From the NCBI GenBank assembly GCA_025934735.1, contig JAICWP010000011.1:1-64000 (forward strand): a stretch of DNA of 64,000 nt. Reading direction: 5' to 3'. Numbering within the stretch: the stretch's first letter is position 1; each line of letters begins with the position of its first letter. Of the stretch, positions 24,951 to 33,721 are shown in pieces. A program made the translations under genes and the position numbers. The notes under the pieces are model-generated. The model searched no databases. It had not been told where the DNA came from and saw only the letters and a program-made list of their open reading frames with translations. The DNA is from Terriglobales bacterium. Lineage in GTDB: Bacteria > Acidobacteriota > Terriglobia > Terriglobales > Acidobacteriaceae.

Positions 24951-27746
24951 CTAGAAGCTGGTCGCAACCCGGGCGGCGATGGCCAGCGAAGCTGTCAGCT
25001 GCGCAGTGTCTAAGAGTGCCTTCCAGGCGGGGGAGCCGCCAATAATTTTTGGCGGCACCACCACCATGTCGCCGGGCTGCATGCGGGTGTTGCGCACATC
25101 GGTGCGGAAGAACCGCGAGCCTCCCGCGCTGGAGACTACGGAGCCATTGGCGCGAATGATAAAGATCGCCTTCCGGTTGGCCGTCTCGGTTGTTCCCCCC
25201 GCCTGGCCCAGGTACCAGCCGGCGCTCTTGCCGGGAGTCCAGGTGATGGCCGTCGGGTTATAGACCTGCCCATTGACCAACACGAAATCCGCCCGCTTGG
25301 GAATGACCACCGTATCCCCGGCCCGCAGTTCAATGTCGGCGAACGTGTTTTGCCACTGCTCTACCTGGGAGGAAATGCGGATGACCAGCCGCCCCGTCGC
25401 TGGGCGTTGCCGCAGCATGGTGACGACCTGATCGCGCTGCTGCAGCATGGCCTGCATGGTTGCCGCCTGCCCCTGTCCAGAGGCGGCGGGGGCAAAGCGT
25501 ACGCTGGCGCTGGCGCTCTCGATCTGCTGGATCAATTCTGTCTTGGCTTTCTCGCCAAGTGACTTTACCTCCACCCGCTCCAGCACGGTCCCGGAGGGAT
25601 AGGCGGTGCCGCGGAATGCGCCGGCGCGCCGGATCACGGAACTGAGCCGTTCGCCTTCCTGAATTCCGTAAGTGCCGGGATAAAGCACCTCCCCGCTGAC
25701 CGACACGGCGGCGCCAATGCCGCTCCAGCCTGTCAATTGCCGGATGGTGAGCAGGTCGCCGGGTTTCAACGCGACATCGGCGGTGGTGCTCTCCCCGCTT
25801 ACCGCCTTCCCAATCTCCACCACCGCTTGCCGCGTGAGCACTCGTTGGCCGTTCTGCACCACGTAGCTGGAGAGATCGGCCGTCTCCCGATAGGCGCTGC
25901 GCTTGAAACCGCCCGCCATAGCCACCAGCCGTGCGGCAGTCATGCCCCGGGAAAGCGGATACTCGCCCGGGCGGAGCACTTCCCCGTAAATCGCAACCTT
26001 GGGAGCATCGAGTTCGTAGCGGCCATACAGGCGGACCGTATCCCAGGGCTGCAGAGGCAGGGGATCAGTCCCGGCGAGGACATCCGCGAGCTGAAAGCGG
26101 ATCGTGCGCGGCTGCCGCTCTGGCCCTTCCAGGCGGACGATCTCGCCCTGTTCCGCCGGCTCCGGCAACAGGTCTTGCCCCGAGCCAATCAGGTCCGAGA
26201 GCTGCAGGCCGGAACGAAAGGGATATTTGCCGGGACGCGAGACGTGTCCTTCCAGGTAAACCGTTTCCTGGCTGTAGGGCAGGATGGGATCGATACTCAC
26301 GCGGTCGCCATCGCGCACCACAAAGCTGCTCAAGATCTGCCCGAGTTCTTCTTCATCGTTGGTTTGCGGCAGGTCGAGGCTGAGCATGACCCGTTTTTCG
26401 TGCGCCTGGATGCGTTCGATCTTGACCTGCCGCAGGGTGGCGGAGACCAGGACCCCGCCAGCCAACTCCAGGACCTCGGAGAGGCGTGTCTCCTCCTTTA
26501 ATTCATACGTCGCTGGACGGCGAACCATGCCGCTGACCGTAACCTGCTGGCCCACCGGACGGACCAACACCGTATCCCCGGGCAGCAGCCGCTCCGGGTC
26601 GGCGCGCACTCCGCGGATCAGCAGGTCATACAGGTCAACCTCCCGCACCAGGCGCTGGCCGCGATACTGGCGCACTCGGCGCAGCGAACCCCGCTCCGTG
26701 GGCCCGCCAGCCGCATATAACGCGTTCAGCGGGGTCGAAAGAGAACTCAGGTCATAAGCCCCCGGATTTTGCACATCGCCCACCACATATACCCGCACGG
26801 TTCGCACCCGGGTGAGGGAGACGTCCACTTTGACATTGCGGAACTGGGGCGTGAGGGCATGCTGAATTGAAGACTGCGCCTCCCCCAGAGTGCGGCCGGC
26901 GACCACAATGGTTCCCGCCTCCGGCAGCGCGACCCGGCCTTCTCGGTCCACGGTGCGCGTCCAGCGCTGCGACACTCCGCCCCAAATGTCCACATTGAGT
27001 CCGTCGCCCGGGCCGAGCACGTACTCAGGTCCGACCGGAAGGTCCATAGCCAGATCAGCCAGGTTGCCGGCGGAGTTGCGAAAAATGTTCATCCCGAAAC
27101 GCGCCACCGCCGGGGGTTGAGCCGGTAACTGCGAGTACAAGTCATTCAGCGAGGGAATGCCGGGATAAGGATTCGGCCGCAGGGCAGGTGCGGGGCGGTT
27201 CGGATCAGCATCGCCGGCGGGCGCTTGCGTCACCGGCACCGGCCGGGGCACGGGCGCACTCGAGGCCGCGGAGCCGGCCTCGGCCAGGTAGCCCTCGGTT
27301 CTGAGCTCCGCAACTACCGCCTCCCGGACCTGCGCGTCCTGCTCCAGGATGCTGAAAAAGGATTCGTCATCGCTGTTTCCGGGCAGAGGCCGTCCGCGCA
27401 GCTCGAGTTGCTGCCCTACTACCTGCCGGATATGGGCGGCAAGTTCCGGACGCTCGCGGAGAAAGTTGGCAACGTTTTCCTTGCTCCCTGCCGTCTGCGC
27501 CCAGGCAAATCCCAGCGACCAAACCACCATCGCAAGCAGAGCCAGCACGAATGATCGTGCCGCCCGGATACTCCAGACTCGCTCCCAGCCGGGTTGCCGG
27601 ATCTTCGGCATGGAACCGAGCAGGCTGCCCTTTAATTGTTCTTCAAATCGTCTCTCGTGGCCAGGATGAGTGGCCGTATTGTGCCCGTGCAGATCGTCGG
27701 CAGTGACGACGCTTCCGATCTCGGGATGCGCGTTCCACTCGTTCAC
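24951..27746 (-). CDS. Polysaccharide export protein with poly_export and multiple SLBB domains (Wza-like)
   Basis: The protein has about 930 residues. A signal segment (FVLALLAMVVWSLGFAWAQ) is followed by a Pro-rich linker, then the polysaccharide export domain (VLGPGDGLNVDIWGGVSQRW and TRVRTVRVYVVGDVQNPGAY), then four or five SLBB repeats (VSGMVRRPATYELKEETRLS, LEGHVSRPGKYPFRSG, YGEVLRPGEYPLSRG, VSGEVLYPGTYGIQEGERLS, VNGQVYNPTAITWTPGKS). Such proteins form the periplasm/outer-membrane channel. GTG 27746 has GGAGG 4 bp upstream, whereas ATG 27611 places the signal peptide closer to the N-terminus, so the start is uncertain. It is the first gene of the operon. Confidence 0.88.
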   Translation of the reverse strand: MNEWNAHPEIGSVVTADDLHGHNTATHPGHERRFEEQLKGSLLGSMPKIRQPGWERVWSIRAARSFVLALLAMVVWSLGFAWAQTAGSKENVANFLRERPELAAHIRQVVGQQLELRGRPLPGNSDDESFFSILEQDAQVREAVVAELRTEGYLAEAGSAASSAPVPRPVPVTQAPAGDADPNRPAPALRPNPYPGIPSLNDLYSQLPAQPPAVARFGMNIFRNSAGNLADLAMDLPVGPEYVLGPGDGLNVDIWGGVSQRWTRTVDREGRVALPEAGTIVVAGRTLGEAQSSIQHALTPQFRNVKVDVSLTRVRTVRVYVVGDVQNPGAYDLSSLSTPLNALYAAGGPTERGSLRRVRQYRGQRLVREVDLYDLLIRGVRADPERLLPGDTVLVRPVGQQVTVSGMVRRPATYELKEETRLSEVLELAGGVLVSATLRQVKIERIQAHEKRVMLSLDLPQTNDEEELGQILSSFVVRDGDRVSIDPILPYSQETVYLEGHVSRPGKYPFRSGLQLSDLIGSGQDLLPEPAEQGEIVRLEGPERQPRTIRFQLADVLAGTDPLPLQPWDTVRLYGRYELDAPKVAIYGEVLRPGEYPLSRGMTAARLVAMAGGFKRSAYRETADLSSYVVQNGQRVLTRQAVVEIGKAVSGESTTADVALKPGDLLTIRQLTGWSGIGAAVSVSGEVLYPGTYGIQEGERLSSVIRRAGAFRGTAYPSGTVLERVEVKSLGEKAKTELIQQIESASASVRFAPAASGQGQAATMQAMLQQRDQVVTMLRQRPATGRLVIRISSQVEQWQNTFADIELRAGDTVVIPKRADFVLVNGQVYNPTAITWTPGKSAGWYLGQAGGTTETANRKAIFIIRANGSVVSSAGGSRFFRTDVRNTRMQPGDMVVVPPKIIGGSPAWKALLDTAQLTASLAIAARVATSF

Positions 27747-28178
27747 AGGGCCTCCAAAGCTTCGCCCCGTCACTTACAGGGCAAGAGTGACCTAGCCGCT
27801 TCACAACGCGCTGGGTTCCCCTCGGCCAGGAAACGACTTGCGATACCGAGCGGCGCCGCGCGTGCAATGTTCCGAGGCTAGGGCCAATGTGAAAAGGTGT
27901 CGGTGATATGGTGGAGAAGCGCCAGGTTACTTAGTGCTGTGGACAGTCACTGTGGGAAAAGTCACATATTCGGGAAGTGTAGTTGCGGGGCGCGGCCAGG
28001 GCAGAGGGTAGATCCCGCGTGCGTTCTTTTTGTCCCGGGGGCGGCGGCCAAACACCCTGCCATCGCGCGACCCAAGACAAAAAAGGAAACTAGGCTAATC
28101 GCCACGGTGTGTACCCATTGAGTGCACGAAGGTGCAATTCACCCGGGTATGCCCGCTCATTTCGTGGTCTAATTACGT
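27747..28178. promoter_or_regulatory. Divergent intergenic region upstream of the polysaccharide operon
   Basis: 432 bp between the operon's first gene (minus) and the small gene at 28179 (plus). It contains the Crp-like site 27951-27966 and GGTGCAATTCACC, a GGTG-N5-CACC palindrome near 28131. No sigma-54 type GG-N10-GC pair was found on the minus strand. A clear sigma-70 promoter was not identified. Confidence 0.45.
27951..27966 (-). promoter_or_regulatory. Crp-like palindromic site TGTGG-N6-TCACA
   Basis: TGTGGGAAAAGTCACA matches the Crp consensus TGTGA-N6-TCACA at 9 of 10 half-site positions. It lies about 205 bp upstream of the GTG of the SLBB gene. It is preceded directly by another TGTGGACAGTCAC, giving two half-palindromes in a row. 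Related sites lie at 41110-41125 and 50207-50222. Confidence 0.5.
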
Positions 28179-28415
28179 ATGCGGAAAAATCGAGGTAATC
28201 CCGGCTGGACCCAGGGACTTCAGGCGGAGAACTGCTTTCCCCCCGTTCCCTCTGAATTTGAGCAACTTGTCAAGCGACTGAAACTCGACCCCGACCAGTA
28301 CGCAACGTCGCCACAGCTCCGCGAGTGGGTTGAGAAGAACTGGCGCCAGAAGTTCGTGCCTGAGAAACTATTGCGGGCTTTACGCTTGAGTGAGTGGGGT
28401 CTGCCCGAACAGTGA
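28179..28415 (+). CDS. Small conserved protein (MRKNRGNPGW family), function unknown
   Basis: The protein has 78 residues: MRKNRGNPGWTQGL, then VPSEFEQLVKRLKLDPDQY, LREWVEKNWRQKFVPEKLL and LRLSEWGL. The start motif and FEQxxKxLxL / W...KxxxxxPExLL pattern recur in small acidobacterial proteins I recognise. The sequence is helical and basic, without membrane segments or cysteines. Transcribed away from the polysaccharide operon. Role unknown. Confidence 0.65.
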   Translation: MRKNRGNPGWTQGLQAENCFPPVPSEFEQLVKRLKLDPDQYATSPQLREWVEKNWRQKFVPEKLLRALRLSEWGLPEQ

Positions 28416-28485
28416 TGGCGTGGAGCCGATCGCGGCAGAACTGCGCCGCCACCCGGCACACGTTAACTTGACCTCGGTATTCAAA

Positions 28486-28710
28486 TCATTCTTCCCGCGA
28501 AACATCGGAATCAGGCGCGACTGCGTTCTCGGATTCGGTCCAGTCCGGGCTGGGCGATTCTGGAGCTGTTGAATCGCCTGGAATTGCCGGGTCTCCCGCC
28601 TGTTTTTCCAGCTTTCGTTGCTGCTTGCGCGCAGCTTTTTCACGCCGCTTTTCCTGGCGCGATATTTCCTTCTGACGTTTGTTGAAAGTCGAACGGCCTC
28701 GACCAGGCAT
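28486..28710 (-). CDS. Small lysine/arginine-rich protein, function unknown
   Basis: 74 residues. The first 37 are strongly basic and helical (GRGRSTFNKRQKEISRQEKR, then EKAARKQQRKLEKQ); the remainder is acidic and Pro/Ser-rich. The start MPGRGRSTFNKRQKE recurs in acidobacterial genomes, so I believe it is a real gene. The basic half suggests nucleic-acid binding, but this is inference. It lies 82 bp downstream of the RRM gene on the same strand. Confidence 0.55.
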   Translation of the reverse strand: MPGRGRSTFNKRQKEISRQEKRREKAARKQQRKLEKQAGDPAIPGDSTAPESPSPDWTESENAVAPDSDVSREE

Positions 28711-28791
28711 ATACTCCTCCCAGAAATGTACAGCAGCGTCCCATCAGCCACGGAAAGCGGTGGCCCAGGGCAATCTAATTTTAGCAGCGAA

Positions 28792-29133
28792 TTACCAGCG
28801 CGGTTCGCGCGGTTGCCGGGCATGCCCGCGATGGTCATCGCGGCCGGAACCATGCGATCGGCCGCCCTGGCCTCCGGAGCTGCGCTCCACTTTGGGACGA
28901 GCCTCGTTTACCTTCAAAGTTCGCCCGCCTAGCTCGGTACCGTTTAATCCGGCCACGGCTTTGTCGGCCTCGCCGGCATCGGTCATCTCCACAAAAGCAA
29001 ATCCCCGCGAGCGGCCGGTGTCGCGGTCCGTGACCAAACTCACTTTCTCCACTGCGCCGTGTGAAGCAAACAACGTTCGCAGTTCATCCTCGGTTGTACT
29101 GTGGGCCAAGTTGCCGACAAAAAGGTTCTTCAT
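28792..29133 (-). CDS. RNA-binding protein with one RRM domain
   Basis: The protein has 113 residues. RRM at residues 2-80: RNP2 LFVGNL, RNP1 RGFAFVEM, with the aromatic residues needed for RNA stacking intact. The glycine/histidine/arginine-rich tail (GGQGGRSHGSGRDDHRGHAR) is like that of cyanobacterial cold-inducible RRM proteins. It starts 4 bp inside the receiver-like gene's 3' end (29130-29133), so it is the third gene of a coupled set with 29130-29780 and 29777-30127. A second RRM gene is at 30944. Confidence 0.88.
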   Translation of the reverse strand: MKNLFVGNLAHSTTEDELRTLFASHGAVEKVSLVTDRDTGRSRGFAFVEMTDAGEADKAVAGLNGTELGGRTLKVNEARPKVERSSGGQGGRSHGSGRDDHRGHARQPREPRW

Positions 29134-29780
29134 CTGATTTTCTCCAGATTTAGATCGGGTGCTGCTGTGTCACTGGCAGGTGCCTCTGGCTGCGATGCGA
29201 TTACTGGTGTGACACCGGCGGAAGTGACGTTCGAATAACTTGCAACCGCCTCAGCCCAGGACGGAGCCGTTATTTTGATCTGTGCCGACACTTTGCCATA
29301 TCCGCGGGGCTGGTTGCGGGAGGGATCCTTCATCGAGCGCGCGGCGGCAATCCGCCATGCGGCTTCTTGAAATCCCCAGCGCCGCGCCAGGCCCTGGCAG
29401 GCACTGGCAAACAGCGATGCCACCACCTCTCCCCAGGCGCCATGGCCGTTGCCGTCGGCAGGAGCAGCCATCGCCGCGCAACCGGGAGAGGCGGCGATAT
29501 ACCCAGGCTTGCCCACCAGGAAAGCGACAGCCTGCGGTGGTCTGGCAGCTTTTACATCGGCGCAGAATTCTTCCACGTTGTGCGTATCATGGACGACGTC
29601 CAGGAGAACAAGGTTGTAGGAGTCCGCCCGCCATAGCGATCGTGCTTCGCTGATATCGGCGGCGCACTCCACGTCCACTCCCATCTTTCGCATGATCCGA
29701 GCCCGCAAATCGCGCCGGACGTCATCCGTCACGATCAAGAGGATGCGTTTTCTACACGCAGGAGCCGCTGGCTGATTCAT
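29130..29780 (-). CDS. Receiver-like (CheY-fold) protein, paralogue of 30519-30890
   Basis: The protein has 216 residues. Residues 10-100 look like a receiver: RILLIVTDDVRRDLR (acidic pair after strand 1), SYNLVLLDVVHD with the phosphoacceptor-type Asp, then VAFLVGKPGYIAASP where the conserved Lys-Pro would be. The rest (residues 105-216) is Ala-rich and carries no known output domain. It shares the unusual FLVGxPxY ending with 30519-30890. It is translationally coupled on both sides (4 bp overlaps) to a membrane protein and an RRM protein, so signalling to RNA metabolism is a reasonable guess. Confidence 0.65.
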   Translation of the reverse strand: MNQPAAPACRKRILLIVTDDVRRDLRARIMRKMGVDVECAADISEARSLWRADSYNLVLLDVVHDTHNVEEFCADVKAARPPQAVAFLVGKPGYIAASPGCAAMAAPADGNGHGAWGEVVASLFASACQGLARRWGFQEAAWRIAAARSMKDPSRNQPRGYGKVSAQIKITAPSWAEAVASYSNVTSAGVTPVIASQPEAPASDTAAPDLNLEKIR

Positions 29781-30127
29781 AAAGACTCGCTCCCCGATCC
29801 GGGACCAGTAATGGAAGCAATCGAAAGACGTGGTTTAGACCTCAACACGGCCAGCGAGATCATGAACACGATGGCAGCCGCCATCTCCAGCATAAGGCCG
29901 GTGCTGGCCGGAAGCGCGATCGGCAGGATGGGATTGAACAGGCAAGCCATGGCGAGAAATACGGCAGCCCAAAAGTAGTTAGTGCGATGGAAAGCCTGCG
30001 CCAAAACCACCAACGCCGCCATCCACACCACGGCGAATATCAGCTTGCGGTAATCGGCAGCTGAGTGTGAGAAAAGTCCCGCCAGCAAGGCTAGCGCCGC
30101 CACAACCTTAATTACTTTGGTGAACAT
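29777..30127 (-). CDS. Small four-helix membrane protein (possibly DUF6804-like)
   Basis: The protein has 116 residues from ATG 30127, which is preceded by GGAGG at good spacing; the longer frame to 30262 has no support. Four hydrophobic segments occur (VAALALLAGLFS, LIFAVVWMAALVVLA, YFWAAVFLAMACLFNPILPI, MLEMAAAIVFMISLAVL). The Phe-Asn-Pro-Ile turn resembles DUF6804 proteins, but I am not sure. It is first in a three-gene coupled set with a receiver-like and an RRM protein. Confidence 0.65.
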   Translation of the reverse strand: MFTKVIKVVAALALLAGLFSHSAADYRKLIFAVVWMAALVVLAQAFHRTNYFWAAVFLAMACLFNPILPIALPASTGLMLEMAAAIVFMISLAVLRSKPRLSIASITGPGSGSESL

Positions 30128-30518
30128 CGGGTGGCCTCCTTGCCCTTCTTGCGGTCGAGATCGCCGCACGCACTTACCTACCGTGCCACACACAACTGCC
30201 TTATATTCTGAATGCAGACTCGTTGTGCGCGTGAGCGCCCTACGCGAGGCCAAGCCTCTCAATCGCGAAGGCGCAGAGAGAAGGGCTGCGATGTGTCTTC
30301 GTGGTCAAGCGGTAGCTTCAGTATACACGCTCCGCAACCAGGCGCGGCATAATTCGATAGCACGGGATATCGCGGGGGGAATGCGGCACCCATCTTCTGA
30401 ATCAAGGCTCCGGCGTTTGGCGAGGAATTGCTGTATGCTGATACCTGACTTCTGGCGACGCCCGCTTCCTTAAGACTTTGCTTCTCGAAACGCTCGCCTC
30501 CAGAGATGGAGGTGTCTC

Positions 30519-30890
30519 TTGTGGCGCTCATCCACTGACTTGGCTTCTAAAAAGAACATCCTTATTGTTGCCGGCAGCCAAGCGGCGCAGAACGTCCGTG
30601 CGGGTATATTGCGCAGCCACGGTGTTGAAGTGCACTGCGCCAGGGACACCGCCGAGGCCGCGCTGCTATGGGTGCCGGATTTTTTCAACCTGGTATTGCT
30701 GGACATGCGGCGGAAACCCACGGAAACAATGGCATTTTGGAGAACGATTCGACGGGAACATCCGAAGCAGCGAATCTTTTTTCTGGTTGGTCCTCCCAAC
30801 TATCTTTCCTCTACCTGCGCTGATGAAGTGTTCGGTAGCAAACCCGCGCCTAAGAAGATGAAGCTCCTCGAAGTCTTGGCCAGCGCATAG
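30519..30890 (+). CDS. Receiver-like (CheY-fold) protein, degenerate
   Basis: The protein has 123 residues. The start is TTG 30519, supported by GGAGG 6 bp upstream; no ATG lies near. NILIVAGSQAAQNVRAGIL lacks the acidic pair of true receivers, FFNLVLLDMRRKP keeps the central Asp, and RIFFLVGPPNYLSS has Pro in place of the conserved Lys. Phosphorylation is therefore doubtful. It is followed 53 bp later by an RRM gene, repeating the arrangement seen on the other strand at 28792-29780. Confidence 0.65.
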   Translation: MWRSSTDLASKKNILIVAGSQAAQNVRAGILRSHGVEVHCARDTAEAALLWVPDFFNLVLLDMRRKPTETMAFWRTIRREHPKQRIFFLVGPPNYLSSTCADEVFGSKPAPKKMKLLEVLASA

Positions 30891-30943
30891 CAGTTCTTAA
30901 CAGGGTTGTCTATGACTCGCGTGCGAACGGAAGGACGGTGAGC

Positions 30944-31243
30944 ATGACTGATATTTTCGTTGGCAACTTAACTTTCCGCACCACTGAGGCTGACATTTAC
31001 GCTTTGTTTGAGCTGTACGGAGCAGTCCAGAGTGTCGCCCTGATGAAGGATCCCCGCACCGGTAATTCCTGCGGTTTTGCGATTGTCCATATGCCAAACC
31101 ACAGGGAAGCGGGCGATGCGATCGTATCCATTAACCACTCTCTCTTGGGTGGATACAGCTTGAGAGTGGAAGAAGCGAGAAAACCAAACCGCCGGGCAGT
31201 CTTGCTTTCCGCATCTCTTAAGACCAGGACGGCGCGCGCCTGA
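30944..31243 (+). CDS. RNA-binding protein with one RRM domain
   Basis: 99 residues from ATG 30944; GTG 30938 would add two residues, and AAGGA upstream fits either. RNP2 IFVGNL and RNP1-like CGFAIVHM (usual RGFGFVxM) are recognisable. The arginine and one of the aromatics of RNP1 are replaced, so RNA affinity may be lower than in the 28792 protein. The tail is short and basic. It pairs with the receiver-like gene upstream. Confidence 0.82.
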   Translation: MTDIFVGNLTFRTTEADIYALFELYGAVQSVALMKDPRTGNSCGFAIVHMPNHREAGDAIVSINHSLLGGYSLRVEEARKPNRRAVLLSASLKTRTARA

Positions 31244-31405
31244 GGTCATCAACCGAGGAGGCTGCATGTCATTGCTCAACGGCGACAAAGCCAGGGAGAA
31301 TCGAAGACGCAGATCACGAATAAAAATGCGGCTAAAAGGGCGCGCACTGAGGAAAGGCCTGCAGCGAAAGCGCTCAGAGCAGCAACAGCGCGAGTCAACA
31401 ACGCC

Positions 31406-31861
31406 CTAAAGCCGCTCTCCCAGCGAATGGAGCAGGTCTCGCAATACTGACATTTTCTCCTGAATGGATTCGAGTTCTTCGCTGGTGAGGGCTGCTGGGC
31501 CGAGGTACTTAAGTACCGTGTCGTATGCCTCACGCGCGCGGCGACGGTTGCGTTCTGTTTTCCTGCTATCGCGGGACTCGGCTGCGATGCGGGCGAGGTT
31601 CAGCCCCACATCCGCTTCGGTGTTCAGGAAGCGGACACTTGCGGCGTGCAGTTCACCAATTGGCTTGGCGAACCGCCCCGCGGTTTGAGCCAAAAAACCC
31701 TTCTGGCTGGCTTGGTGCTTCTGTGCCTCGGTAAGCTGTTTGTCTGCGCGTTCAGCAAGGCTCTGGGCTTGCTCCTGCTGCCGCCTCAGGTTGCGAGAAG
31801 ATTCGGCGGCTTCCAGTCCTGCTTGGCGTCTCTGCGTCGCGGACTTCTTCTCCTTCGCCAT
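31406..31861 (-). CDS. Coiled-coil protein, function unknown
   Basis: A 151-residue, highly charged helical protein. The first 60 residues (MAKEKKSATQRRQAGLEAAE, LRRQQEQAQSLAERADKQ) should form a coiled coil; a second helical part has ARIAAESRDSRKTERNRRR and TSEELESIQEKMSVLRDLL. There is no signal peptide or membrane segment. Codon usage and composition look native. It lies between the second RRM gene and a histidine kinase. No family was recognised. Confidence 0.6.
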   Translation of the reverse strand: MAKEKKSATQRRQAGLEAAESSRNLRRQQEQAQSLAERADKQLTEAQKHQASQKGFLAQTAGRFAKPIGELHAASVRFLNTEADVGLNLARIAAESRDSRKTERNRRRAREAYDTVLKYLGPAALTSEELESIQEKMSVLRDLLHSLGERL

Positions 31862-31995
31862 AAAAGATATGGTGGCACATTCACGACGTCAAAGCCAGAG
31901 TCCCTCTGCCGCAGGGCGGCGGGAGCCTGTTGTAGGCATTTGGCATTGCATGAAACCTGTATCCTTGTGGCCAGCGTAAGGGCTCCGCGTACGGG

Positions 31996-32712
31996 CTAGG
32001 CCGCGGGAAAGAACAGTGTGAAAACGGTGCCGTGTCGGCCCCGTTGCGTGCTGCTCCTGACATGCACGGAACCTTTGTGTTTTTGCATCACATCGTTGAC
32101 CACCGACAATCCCAGACCGTGGCCGCACGGTTTCGTCGTGAAGAAGCGCTGCAGGACCCCGGGCAGCATGTTCTTGGGTATGCCGGAGCCGTCGTCCGCA
32201 ATCGTCACCCGGACACCCTCTCGCTGTTGGCCACACCATTCGTGCGCGGCATACACTTTCGCATGAATCGTTCCACCTTCCGGCATCGCCTCCACGGCAT
32301 TCAGTAAAAGATTTGAAAACGCCTGGTGTAGCTGCGCAGCGCACACCCGAATGTTGTCATCACCTGAGTAATGGGTTTTGACCGCGATACCCGATGACTC
32401 AAGCCGCTTTCTGTGAAGCTCAAGTACCGCAGCCAGCAATTCTCCTATAGCGGTTCTTTCGGCGACGGCCACAACTTTGTGTTGGCCGAGCGATTCGCGT
32501 GCGATTTGCGAGACTCGGCGGACTTCCTCTTCAGCCAGGGCCAGGTGCCGCCGTCCTTTTTCGGTCAGGGGCTCAGATTCGAGAAGATAGGGGAGGTTAA
32601 GGAGGGAATCGAGCGGGTTGTTAATTTCGTGGGCAGCCGATGCGGAGAGACCGCCGTTCGGTGGCCGCGCTCTCGTTTCCAGCCTTTCGTCTATTTTGGC
32701 GCCTGCGGACAT
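31996..32712 (-). CDS. Soluble sensor histidine kinase (HisKA-HATPase, no sensor domain)
   Basis: The protein has 238 residues. The start ATG 32712 has AGGT upstream; GTG 32721 is the alternative. DHp domain has phospho-accepting His in AAHEINNPL at about residue 28. ATPase domain has the N box LLLNAVEAMPEGG, G1 VTIADDGSGIP, F box LQRFFTTKPCGHGLGLSV and G2 RHGTVFTL. There is no PAS, GAF or membrane part, so it needs a partner for input. It is divergent from the Crp-family gene at 33017. Its cognate regulator is not adjacent. Confidence 0.88.
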   Translation of the reverse strand: MSAGAKIDERLETRARPPNGGLSASAAHEINNPLDSLLNLPYLLESEPLTEKGRRHLALAEEEVRRVSQIARESLGQHKVVAVAERTAIGELLAAVLELHRKRLESSGIAVKTHYSGDDNIRVCAAQLHQAFSNLLLNAVEAMPEGGTIHAKVYAAHEWCGQQREGVRVTIADDGSGIPKNMLPGVLQRFFTTKPCGHGLGLSVVNDVMQKHKGSVHVRSSTQRGRHGTVFTLFFPAA

Positions 32713-33016
32713 CGTATGCACCTGACGGTTAAAAGTTAGGCCTCACCTTCTGTCTGATGCCAGACATCGGGTCAAGGTAGTCCAAGCAGGTACTCACAAC
32801 CACTCGCAGGCGGTGTGGAACCGGGAAATCTGCCTGACCAGAGCTGAACCATGCCCCCGCCGTGCTTCCTGCGAGCGACGAGGGCTCGTATCTTGCCTTC
32901 CGAGGAGGAGCGTATACTCCAGTTGACATCTCCATACGCATCTCTTCCCACCTCCAACGGGTTGGTTCCTTTGCGCATCCAGATGCGGCGTTTTAACGAC
33001 CGCGCGAAGGAGCCTT
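32713..33016. promoter_or_regulatory. Divergent promoter region between kinase and Crp-family genes
   Basis: 304 bp. TTGACA occurs at about 32922-32927 on the plus strand, but the 17-bp-spaced hexamer is not a good -10. No GTGA-N6-TCAC site was seen here. No gene is visible. Confidence 0.3.
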
Positions 33017-33721
33017 ATGAACCGAGCCAGCCGGCCTCGCTACGAAAACCGTGTGTTGGCCGCATTGCCGAGGTTGGAAATTAGCCGCCTTGCGCCCCAC
33101 CTGGCGCCTGTCACTCTGAAATTGCGAACACAACTGCTGGACGGGAAAGCCGATTACGCATTCTTCTTGGAGGAGGGTCTTGCTTCCGTCGTTTTACCCA
33201 TGAAAAATGGCGGTACGGTCGAGGTTGGCGTCATTGGCATAGACGGCGTGGTTGGGCTTCCCGTTCTGCTCGGGGCGCAGAGAATGCCCGGAGAGACGTT
33301 CATTCAGGTAGAAGGCACCGGGTTCCGCATCAAGGCAAAACGCCTGAAAGAAGCCTTTGAGCGTCGCGGCGAGTTACGGCGTCACTTGCAAAAATATGTG
33401 CTGGCCAATCTGGTTCAAAGTGCGCAGAACGCCGCTTGCAACCGGCTGCACCCCATTGCGGAACGACTTGCACGGTGGCTCCTAACTTGCCATGACCGTG
33501 TGCGATCCGACTTTATGCCGCTCACCCATGAGTTTCTTTCTCAGATGCTGGGCGCACCACGTACCACGGTGACCCTGGCGGCAGGAATGCTGCAGGAAGC
33601 TGGCTTGATTGACTACACCCGAGGTCACGTGACCATCAAGACCCGCTCCGGGCTGGAAAAAGCCACCTGCGAGTGCTACGGCGTTGTGCGCAATGAATTT
33701 CGCCGTCTGGGCCTGCTTTAG
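33017..33721 (+). CDS. Crp/Fnr family transcriptional regulator
   Basis: The protein has 234 residues. NRVLAALPRLEISRLAPHL leads into a cyclic-nucleotide-binding fold (YAFFLEEGLASVVLPMKNGG, VGVIGIDGVVGLPVLLG). The phosphate-binding Arg of cAMP-binding Crp is not visible, so the effector is probably not cAMP. There is a dimerisation helix, then a winged helix with FLSQMLGAPRTTVTLAAGML; this recognition helix differs from E. coli Crp (RETVGR). AAGGAG precedes the ATG. It is divergent from the kinase gene. Confidence 0.85.
   Translation: MNRASRPRYENRVLAALPRLEISRLAPHLAPVTLKLRTQLLDGKADYAFFLEEGLASVVLPMKNGGTVEVGVIGIDGVVGLPVLLGAQRMPGETFIQVEGTGFRIKAKRLKEAFERRGELRRHLQKYVLANLVQSAQNAACNRLHPIAERLARWLLTCHDRVRSDFMPLTHEFLSQMLGAPRTTVTLAAGMLQEAGLIDYTRGHVTIKTRSGLEKATCECYGVVRNEFRRLGLL

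Follow-up and report, generated by a model that had tools for sequence, protein, structure and literature searches.

What does a receiver-like protein do beside an RNA-binding protein? The question is raised by a locus of a Terriglobales bacterium (assembly GCA_025934735.1, genome of 4.94 Mb), where genes for such proteins are paired on both strands. The locus lies in the window, the whole stretch of 64,000 nucleotides analysed here, which is the start of contig C43 (JAICWP010000011.1). A sequence-only reading had described two pairs of a receiver-like protein and a protein with an RNA recognition motif (RRM), and had proposed a post-transcriptional switch with a membrane input; this interpretation is partly supported. 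The minus-strand receiver-like protein, named A, belongs to an operon conserved in one Terriglobales family. We favour, with a probability that we place somewhat above one half, the reading that A is a phosphorylation-independent pseudo-receiver that partners an RRM RNA chaperone in a cold-shock-like operon with a conserved leader.

Genomic organization and conservation of the operon

On the minus strand of the window, the operon begins with the gene of a DUF6804 small membrane protein (29777-30127; PF20619, E 1.5e-11). It is followed by A (29130-29780; 216 aa), recognized by a weak Response_reg match and its predicted fold; by an RRM protein of the Rbp type (28792-29133; 113 aa; PF00076 RRM_1, E 9.4e-25, 86.7 bits) with the tail GHARQPREPRW; and by a small basic protein named KRQKE (28486-28710; 74 aa), which has homologues downstream of A in other genomes. 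The DUF6804/A and A/RRM junctions are each a 4-bp ATGA overlap, exactly the coupling that the sequence-only reading had described.

A hidden Markov model (HMM) of A-type proteins, built from eight proteins, matched 174 of the 398 genomes of one Terriglobales family (the family set) at E<=1e-8. Gene order was read at 68 loci out of 71 matches at E<=7.7e-34; G393:C445, G088:C235 and G094:C182 were left out, though the full operon was seen in G088. Some tallies have 69 rows, namely these 68 A-type loci and B, the receiver-like gene of the plus strand. Genes were called with a custom script, and small genes were checked by HMMs over all open reading frames (ORFs).

An RRM gene lies downstream of A, on the same strand and within 1.5 kb, at 52 of the 68 loci, representing 18 genera, and upstream at two more. 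Conservation of the pair across other genomes, which the sequence-only reading had named as the check to be made, therefore holds for A. At 44 of these 52 loci, the receiver stop and the RRM start share a 4-bp overlap, and ATGA is the terminal sequence of the gene for a second small basic peptide, NGDK, in 39 of 50 rows. NGDK is present at 49 and KRQKE, downstream of A, at 50 of the 68 loci. A DEAD-box helicase occurs at 34 and CspA at 28; for these two, the whole retrieved stretch was counted, which is longer or shorter depending on the contig. The usual operon is composed of the NGDK peptide, the pseudo-receiver, the Rbp-type RRM protein and the KRQKE peptide, and a DEAD-box helicase gene and cspA are often close by. 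DUF6804 is not part of this core but an optional addition; a membrane input as the core of the module was rejected, because the gene occurs in just 8 of the 68 loci.

With about one RRM gene in each genome of the family (37 matches in 37 genomes), adjacency to A by chance is negligible. The genome of the window has three RRM genes, two in the window and one on contig C20; with only three such genes and a linkage that recurs in 18 genera, the association goes beyond chance. Of genomes where A is not followed by an RRM gene, 15 were searched, and RRM genes were found in all 15. Named GTDB genomes, when scanned, yielded 41 loci, 40 of them in metagenome-assembled genomes of Acidobacteriota; an RRM gene follows the receiver gene in 38 of the 40, and the contig ends first in the other two. 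These loci come largely from the same assemblies as our G-numbered genomes and were not counted as independent. The 41st locus, from Planctomycetales, matches as an ordinary receiver protein. Among 347 phylum-wide genomes, matches at E<=1e-12 were found in 12, every one of this Terriglobales family.

Purifying selection acts on each of the four protein families of the operon. The median ratios of nonsynonymous to synonymous substitution rates (dN/dS), for pairs with dS of 0.1-1.2, are 0.41 for NGDK, 0.21 for the receiver, 0.07 (0.066) for the RRM protein and 0.17 for KRQKE. An apparent NGDK-receiver fusion at L197 and L130 was dropped, as the fused frame crosses an assembly gap of N. Next to genes for pseudo-receivers, RRM proteins or DUF6804, an unnamed protein family of 124-147 aa was met repeatedly (L060:7374-7793, L062:6754-7179, L064:6275-6649 and L063:14470-14913); the two members tried had no significant Pfam match.

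The receiver-like protein A

A matches Pfam Response_reg (PF00072) at E 0.0022 and 18.6 bits, under the cut-off of 30.2. This is the sole Pfam match in A at E<=0.1, and a C-terminal ANTAR domain, the mark of AmiR-type regulators, was not found at that threshold. A complete receiver fold has five strands and five helices, and its active site is formed by an acidic pair, an acceptor Asp, a Thr or Ser, and a Lys. In the AlphaFold2 model of A, the order is beta1-alpha1-beta2-alpha2-beta3-alpha3-beta4, with a high predicted local distance difference test score (pLDDT) at residues about 11-90, followed by a loop and further helices. A second A-type member modelled presents the same beta/alpha order. 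Both predicted models fall short of the complete five-strand fold, and beta5 with its Lys is absent from both. The nearest folds to A in Foldseek are receiver domains, the best being NtrC1 (1zy2_A, E 4.2e-4). As far as prediction goes, A is a receiver-derived fold truncated after beta4. The FLVG(K/P)PxY motif, which the sequence-only reading had taken for an unusual protein ending, is indeed common to A and B; it marks the end of beta4 in the A model, and not the end of the protein.

That reading had also assigned the loss of the acidic pocket to one of the two receivers. The loss is real and affects both alike, the pocket positions being Val-Thr in A and Ala-Gly in B, with the acceptor Asp present in both. 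Aligned columns of the 68 A-type proteins, read by hand, keep the first pocket Asp in 56 and the second in none, and the Thr position is Gly in all 68. The acceptor position is occupied by Asp in 28, Asn in 31, Ser in 5 and His in 4. The acceptor Asp is found in 16 of 54 RRM-linked copies versus 12 of 14 unlinked copies, the remaining 38 RRM-linked copies having Asn, Ser or His. Arg26, Trp50, Pro81, Gln83, Val89-Gly90 and Pro92 are invariant or nearly so in the A family.

These residues bear on whether A is a working two-component receiver, phosphorylated by a histidine kinase and switching the RRM protein. The first pocket Asp and the acceptor Asp, where they are kept, would fit such a role, as would the acceptor Asp of the window's A itself; in addition, a HisKA/HATPase protein is encoded in the window (31996-32721), and a fragment near the operon in G035 (L057) is kinase-like by eye. 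Even so, we consider this explanation very unlikely, and the phospho-receiver reading of A was rejected, because no member of the family retains the second pocket Asp or the Thr, and most RRM-linked copies lack the acceptor Asp. The Lys of beta5 is also missing from the models. An ORF like the window kinase lies within 3 kb of A at one of the 68 loci, the window itself, in a search that started from one sequence and may overlook distant kinases. A is better described as a probable pseudo-receiver bearing a new conserved surface, for which a phospho-switch is unlikely. Cys39 and Cys73 of A are kept in 54/69 and 58/69 rows, respectively, and a redox role of these residues is possible.

RRM proteins and small basic peptides

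The first RRM protein of the window scores 104.2 bits against NCBIfam NF058537 (Rbp_regulator), over the cut-off of 100, and has an intact RNP1 motif (RGFAFVEM), which places it in the Rbp type. The second, RRM2 (30938-31243, plus strand; probable ATG at 30944), is a divergent paralogue that passes PF00076 (E 1e-17, 64.2 bits) and reaches 70.8 bits against Rbp_regulator, below the same cut-off. Its degenerate RNP1 (CGFAIVHM) is the sole such case among 57 readable RNP1 motifs; six more were unreadable.

The NGDK gene of the window encodes a peptide of 47 aa (31266-31409, plus strand; family HMM E 3e-12) and sits after RRM2, away from its usual place heading the A operon. This gene, the KRQKE gene (28486-28710, minus strand) and the leader described below come in addition to the elements listed in the sequence-only reading. 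The KRQKE protein of the window had no Pfam match at E<=0.1 and its NGDK peptide none at E<=0.01; for the basic peptides of the window and their relatives, no Pfam or NCBIfam family was found over its cut-off. One KRQKE relative (L059:7081-7311) has a weak match to NCBIfam LB_289, with an E of 0.0022, under the cut-off. Judging from such similarity, related basic proteins may exist outside Acidobacteria.

The conserved leader

When the sequences ahead of the NGDK gene were aligned (47 regions), a conserved leader emerged, with the consensus CTTRACC[T/A]CGAAGACAC, a spacer and then TGCGCCTTCGCGATTGAGA, or, in short form, CTTRACC[T/A]CGAAGAC…CCTTCGCGATTGAG. The pattern was found in 52 of 69 loci, after one spurious match (L138, inside a coding gene) was dropped. 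In 45 of the 52 leader loci, the leader is preceded at 6-10 nt by a TATA[CA]T box, and the first module gene behind it is NGDK in 43 of the 52, the receiver gene in 5 and DUF6804 in 4. In the window, the leader occupies positions 30255-30309 of the minus strand, ahead of the A operon, with the inverted repeat CTTGACCACGAAG...CTTCGCGATTGAG, and a putative −10-like box, TATACT, was read in the sequence at 30320-30325 of the same strand. A sigma-70 consensus scan of 28100-31500 found no promoter.

A covariance model of the leader was built from 44 of 51 distinct sequences, near-duplicates being left out. It matches the window's copy with 62.4 bits (E 2.2e-12), this copy being itself a row of the model. 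At E<=10, the model finds two copies in the genome of the window, each ahead of an RRM transcription unit: the copy before the A operon and one on C20, after a TATACT and 61 nt before the ATG of the third RRM gene (G000:C20:218172-218622). A DEAD-box helicase gene is divergent from that third gene, and the receiver HMM matches nothing near it.

In 200 family genomes, the model at E<=1e-4 detected 50 leader copies in 47 genomes. Module genes verified by HMM follow 46 of the 50, and an RRM operon follows 37. A pseudo-receiver gene without an RRM gene stands behind six copies (G098, G143, G078, G159, G021 and, at a contig end, G100), and NGDK without a receiver gene and with no RRM gene directly next to it behind three (G036:C1, G004 and G101); in G101, an RRM gene lies 388 bp past KRQKE. 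One copy (G114:C203) has cspA behind it, after a gene that is receiver-like by eye and has no Pfam match. Of the other three, one lies at a contig end (G149:C408), one stands before a sigma-70 gene (G188:C17) and one has no module gene behind it (G036:C19). Among the 21 matches outside the model, 18 stand before module genes or cspA. The leader also precedes pseudo-receiver genes away from RRM genes, which suggests that it marks one regulon, with pseudo-receivers distant from RRM genes under common control without adjacency.

Two sigma-70 family genes were seen in these surroundings, one behind the leader (L288:1540-3753, in G188:C17) and one beside an RRM gene (L064:3461-5080, in G028:C115). 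The TATACT promoter could be recognized by a sigma factor of this kind.

Is the leader an RNA element, or is it a DNA operator or an extension of the promoter? The second possibility is a strong contender, to which we give a little less than an even chance. The leader starts close behind the TATA[CA]T box, and hence near the presumed transcription start, and it is an imperfect inverted repeat, with arms CGAAG/CTTCG and a loop of 15-27 nt. Covariation gave no support for the stem: five of the six predicted pairs, the core pairs, are invariant, and shuffled alignments reach most of the counts. Moreover, better folding is predicted for the strand opposite the operon, with 628 vs 558 of 748 cells paired and a mean minimum free energy of -16.3 vs -9.7 kcal/mol. 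On the other hand, the variable spacer between CGAAG and CTTCG is more in keeping with a hairpin loop than with an operator for a dimer, and the leader persists in the 7 of 52 loci in which no TATA[CA]T box was found. Rfam 15 had no match at E<=0.1 in window positions 27500-33100. The opposite strand of the leader faces gene B in the window and cspA in 22 of the 52 leader loci. The idea of strong folding immediately ahead of NGDK was rejected, the mean z being about 0.

The B set of the plus strand

The plus strand carries, in order, B, RRM2 and NGDK. B (30519-30890) is a short single-domain paralogue with a TTG start and matches Response_reg at E 4.4e-4 and 20.8 bits, under the cut-off of 30.2. 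The two divergent units are separated by about 390 bp (30127 to 30519), and not by the 650 bp first reported.

The sequence-only reading had treated this pair as a second instance of the module. For comparison, 40 weaker receiver matches and 9 loci from earlier searches were examined. Four of the 40 have an RRM gene in the stretch (L210, L224, L229 and L239), and one of the nine does (L064, about 1.5 kb off and on the other strand). These superfamily paralogues are mostly short single-domain proteins, common in the family and mostly beside other genes, among them metH-like and reductase-like ones. Methionine synthase-like genes, for instance, adjoin the short degenerate receivers L071:6081-6434 and L072:6255-6641 (G016 and G030; protein starts read). 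In the receiver tree, B clusters with rows from L209, L210 and L222 (SH-aLRT 100).

That B and RRM2 form a second, independent functional pair is unlikely in our estimate. Both are open frames homologous to module families, and in G402 (L210) a short receiver of B's small clade is followed by an RRM gene after about 330 bp. Against this, 5 of the 49 loci compared have an RRM gene in the stretch, RRM2 has the one degenerate RNP1 among the readable motifs, and no leader match was found before B on B's strand. B, RRM2 and NGDK make up a divergent set of paralogues that is partly degenerate, and the A operon is the conserved one. Because the superfamily paralogues are mostly without an RRM gene and the RNP1 of RRM2 is degenerate, the two pairs of the window are not two copies of one system. 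Beyond the B pair, at 31996-33721, the small histidine kinase-like protein mentioned above is encoded together with a Crp-like regulator.

Evolution of the operon

Operons without the receiver gene exist, with the order leader-NGDK-RRM-KRQKE. This suggests that such an operon is the older core, into which the pseudo-receiver was inserted later with its ATGA overlaps; the reverse order, with the pseudo-receiver lost from the operon, is also conceivable. In two of these operons, rpsU (ribosomal protein S21, PF01165) stands after KRQKE (L263:21-245 and L285:1723-1944, in G025 and G149). In cyanobacteria, rbp may likewise be linked to rpsU; no paper on such a linkage was found.

The receiver tree, which has 90 columns, 119 rows and many open forks, was used only for the clustering of labels, the RRM label of short rows being set by locus. 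On it, the RRM-linked label needs 9 changes vs 40 in shuffles, and one clade has 53 of its 55 rows RRM-linked.

Proposed function of the pseudo-receiver

The favoured reading, of a pseudo-receiver partnering an RRM chaperone, draws on gene order, the ATGA overlaps, purifying selection, the loss of the pocket, and the conservation and gene specificity of the leader, together with the predicted truncated fold of A. The operon would be read from a TATACT-type promoter and begin with the leader, which may bind products of the operon, in an autoregulation, or respond to temperature. A would be translated in coupling with the Rbp-type single-RRM protein and act as a protein-protein adaptor or regulator of this RNA chaperone. 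It would bind the RRM protein or a partner, such as the helicase or the basic peptides, and so set its activity or its place. The neighbouring genes cspA, DEAD helicase and rpsU suggest that the operon serves RNA remodelling in cold or stress.

Several observations weigh against this proposal. At 14 of the 68 A loci, no RRM gene lies within reach, and the g71 group is set among unrelated genes, yet the leader is present in two of its four loci. The leader pattern was not found in 17 of the 69 loci, two of which (G082 and G078) the model matched later, and 29 of the 50 leader matches are rows of the model itself. Nine of the 50 copies head RRM operons without a pseudo-receiver, and the pseudo-receiver is therefore dispensable for the core. 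The helices after beta4 in the A model are of low confidence. Finally, the cold role is proposed from the neighbours and by analogy.

These nine operons would also fit a pseudo-receiver that merely rides along, being co-expressed with an unrelated job of its own and held in place by the shared promoter and leader. The paralogues that adjoin metH-like, reductase-like and other genes are in line with this as well. We rate it as rather unlikely. The 4-bp overlap preserved in 44 of 52 loci argues against mere riding along; the clade described above is almost wholly RRM-linked, and the same leader fronts pseudo-receiver genes elsewhere in the genome.

Starting again from the partnership of A and the RRM chaperone, a further proposal is more tentative, and its chances seem to us to be about one in three. 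The pseudo-receiver, independent of phosphorylation, and the separate RRM chaperone may form a co-translated two-protein switch, a new kind of post-transcriptional control unit in bacteria, joined by the two new basic peptides and placed under a new leader, which would define a small RNA-chaperone regulon of RRM genes, pseudo-receivers and, singly, cspA or a sigma-70 gene.

Relation to known systems

No description of a receiver-RRM operon was found in searches of an open-access library. One close parallel is found in cyanobacteria. In the available passages of PMC9333190, type I Rbp proteins (Rbp1/RbpA1) have a single RRM and a glycine-rich tail, Rbp1 is needed in the cold, and type I genes have conserved cold-response boxes in the 5' untranslated region, which the same source calls an unreliable criterion for Rbp typing. 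The acidobacterial operon resembles this, as far as that text goes, in its single Rbp-type RRM, its Gly-containing tail, its conserved upstream sequence and its stress-RNA setting. The leader and the cold boxes are likened by position and presence, not by sequence, and the acidobacterial operon differs from the type I genes described there by its pseudo-receiver, its two basic peptides and its ATGA overlaps.

AmiR and other ANTAR regulators have a receiver or pseudo-receiver joined to an RNA-binding domain; in AmiR, as the passages at hand of PMC3369936 describe it, the pseudo-receiver is not phosphorylated and is linked to an ANTAR domain that binds RNA. AmiR shares with the A operon the pairing of a pseudo-receiver, which is the controlling part in AmiR, with an RNA-binding output. 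Unlike AmiR, as presented in that excerpt, the operon encodes two separate proteins, has an RRM instead of ANTAR, and in the window contains no AmiC-like ligand sensor. A further parallel is Rbp2 of Synechococcus, a proposed member of a night-time clock complex with the Kai proteins and CikA, according to the accessible part of PMC12889050, in whose reference list the CikA pseudo-receiver is named. Rbp2 is likewise a single-RRM protein, placed there in one complex with a pseudo-receiver protein; the acidobacterial operon, in contrast, has no Kai proteins, and the same part of the source claims no direct contact between Rbp2 and CikA. RbpB of Bacteroides, an RRM-1 global RNA binder in the portion of PMC11697453 at hand, belongs to the same bacterial single-RRM RNA-binding type, and the window RRM passes the Rbp_regulator cut-off; that portion mentions neither a receiver partner nor a comparable leader.

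The conserved operon and its leader suggest that one family of soil Acidobacteria has a hitherto undescribed, cold-shock-like system of RNA handling. In our judgement, the control of bacterial single-RRM proteins is a largely open subject. If the proposed partnership is true, a conserved partner with a 4-bp overlap and a leader that marks a regulon would provide a direct handle on the control of RRM proteins in Acidobacteria. A receiver domain would then have been remade from a phospho-switch into the partner of an RNA chaperone, and the loss of its acceptor Asp would be traceable inside one protein family.

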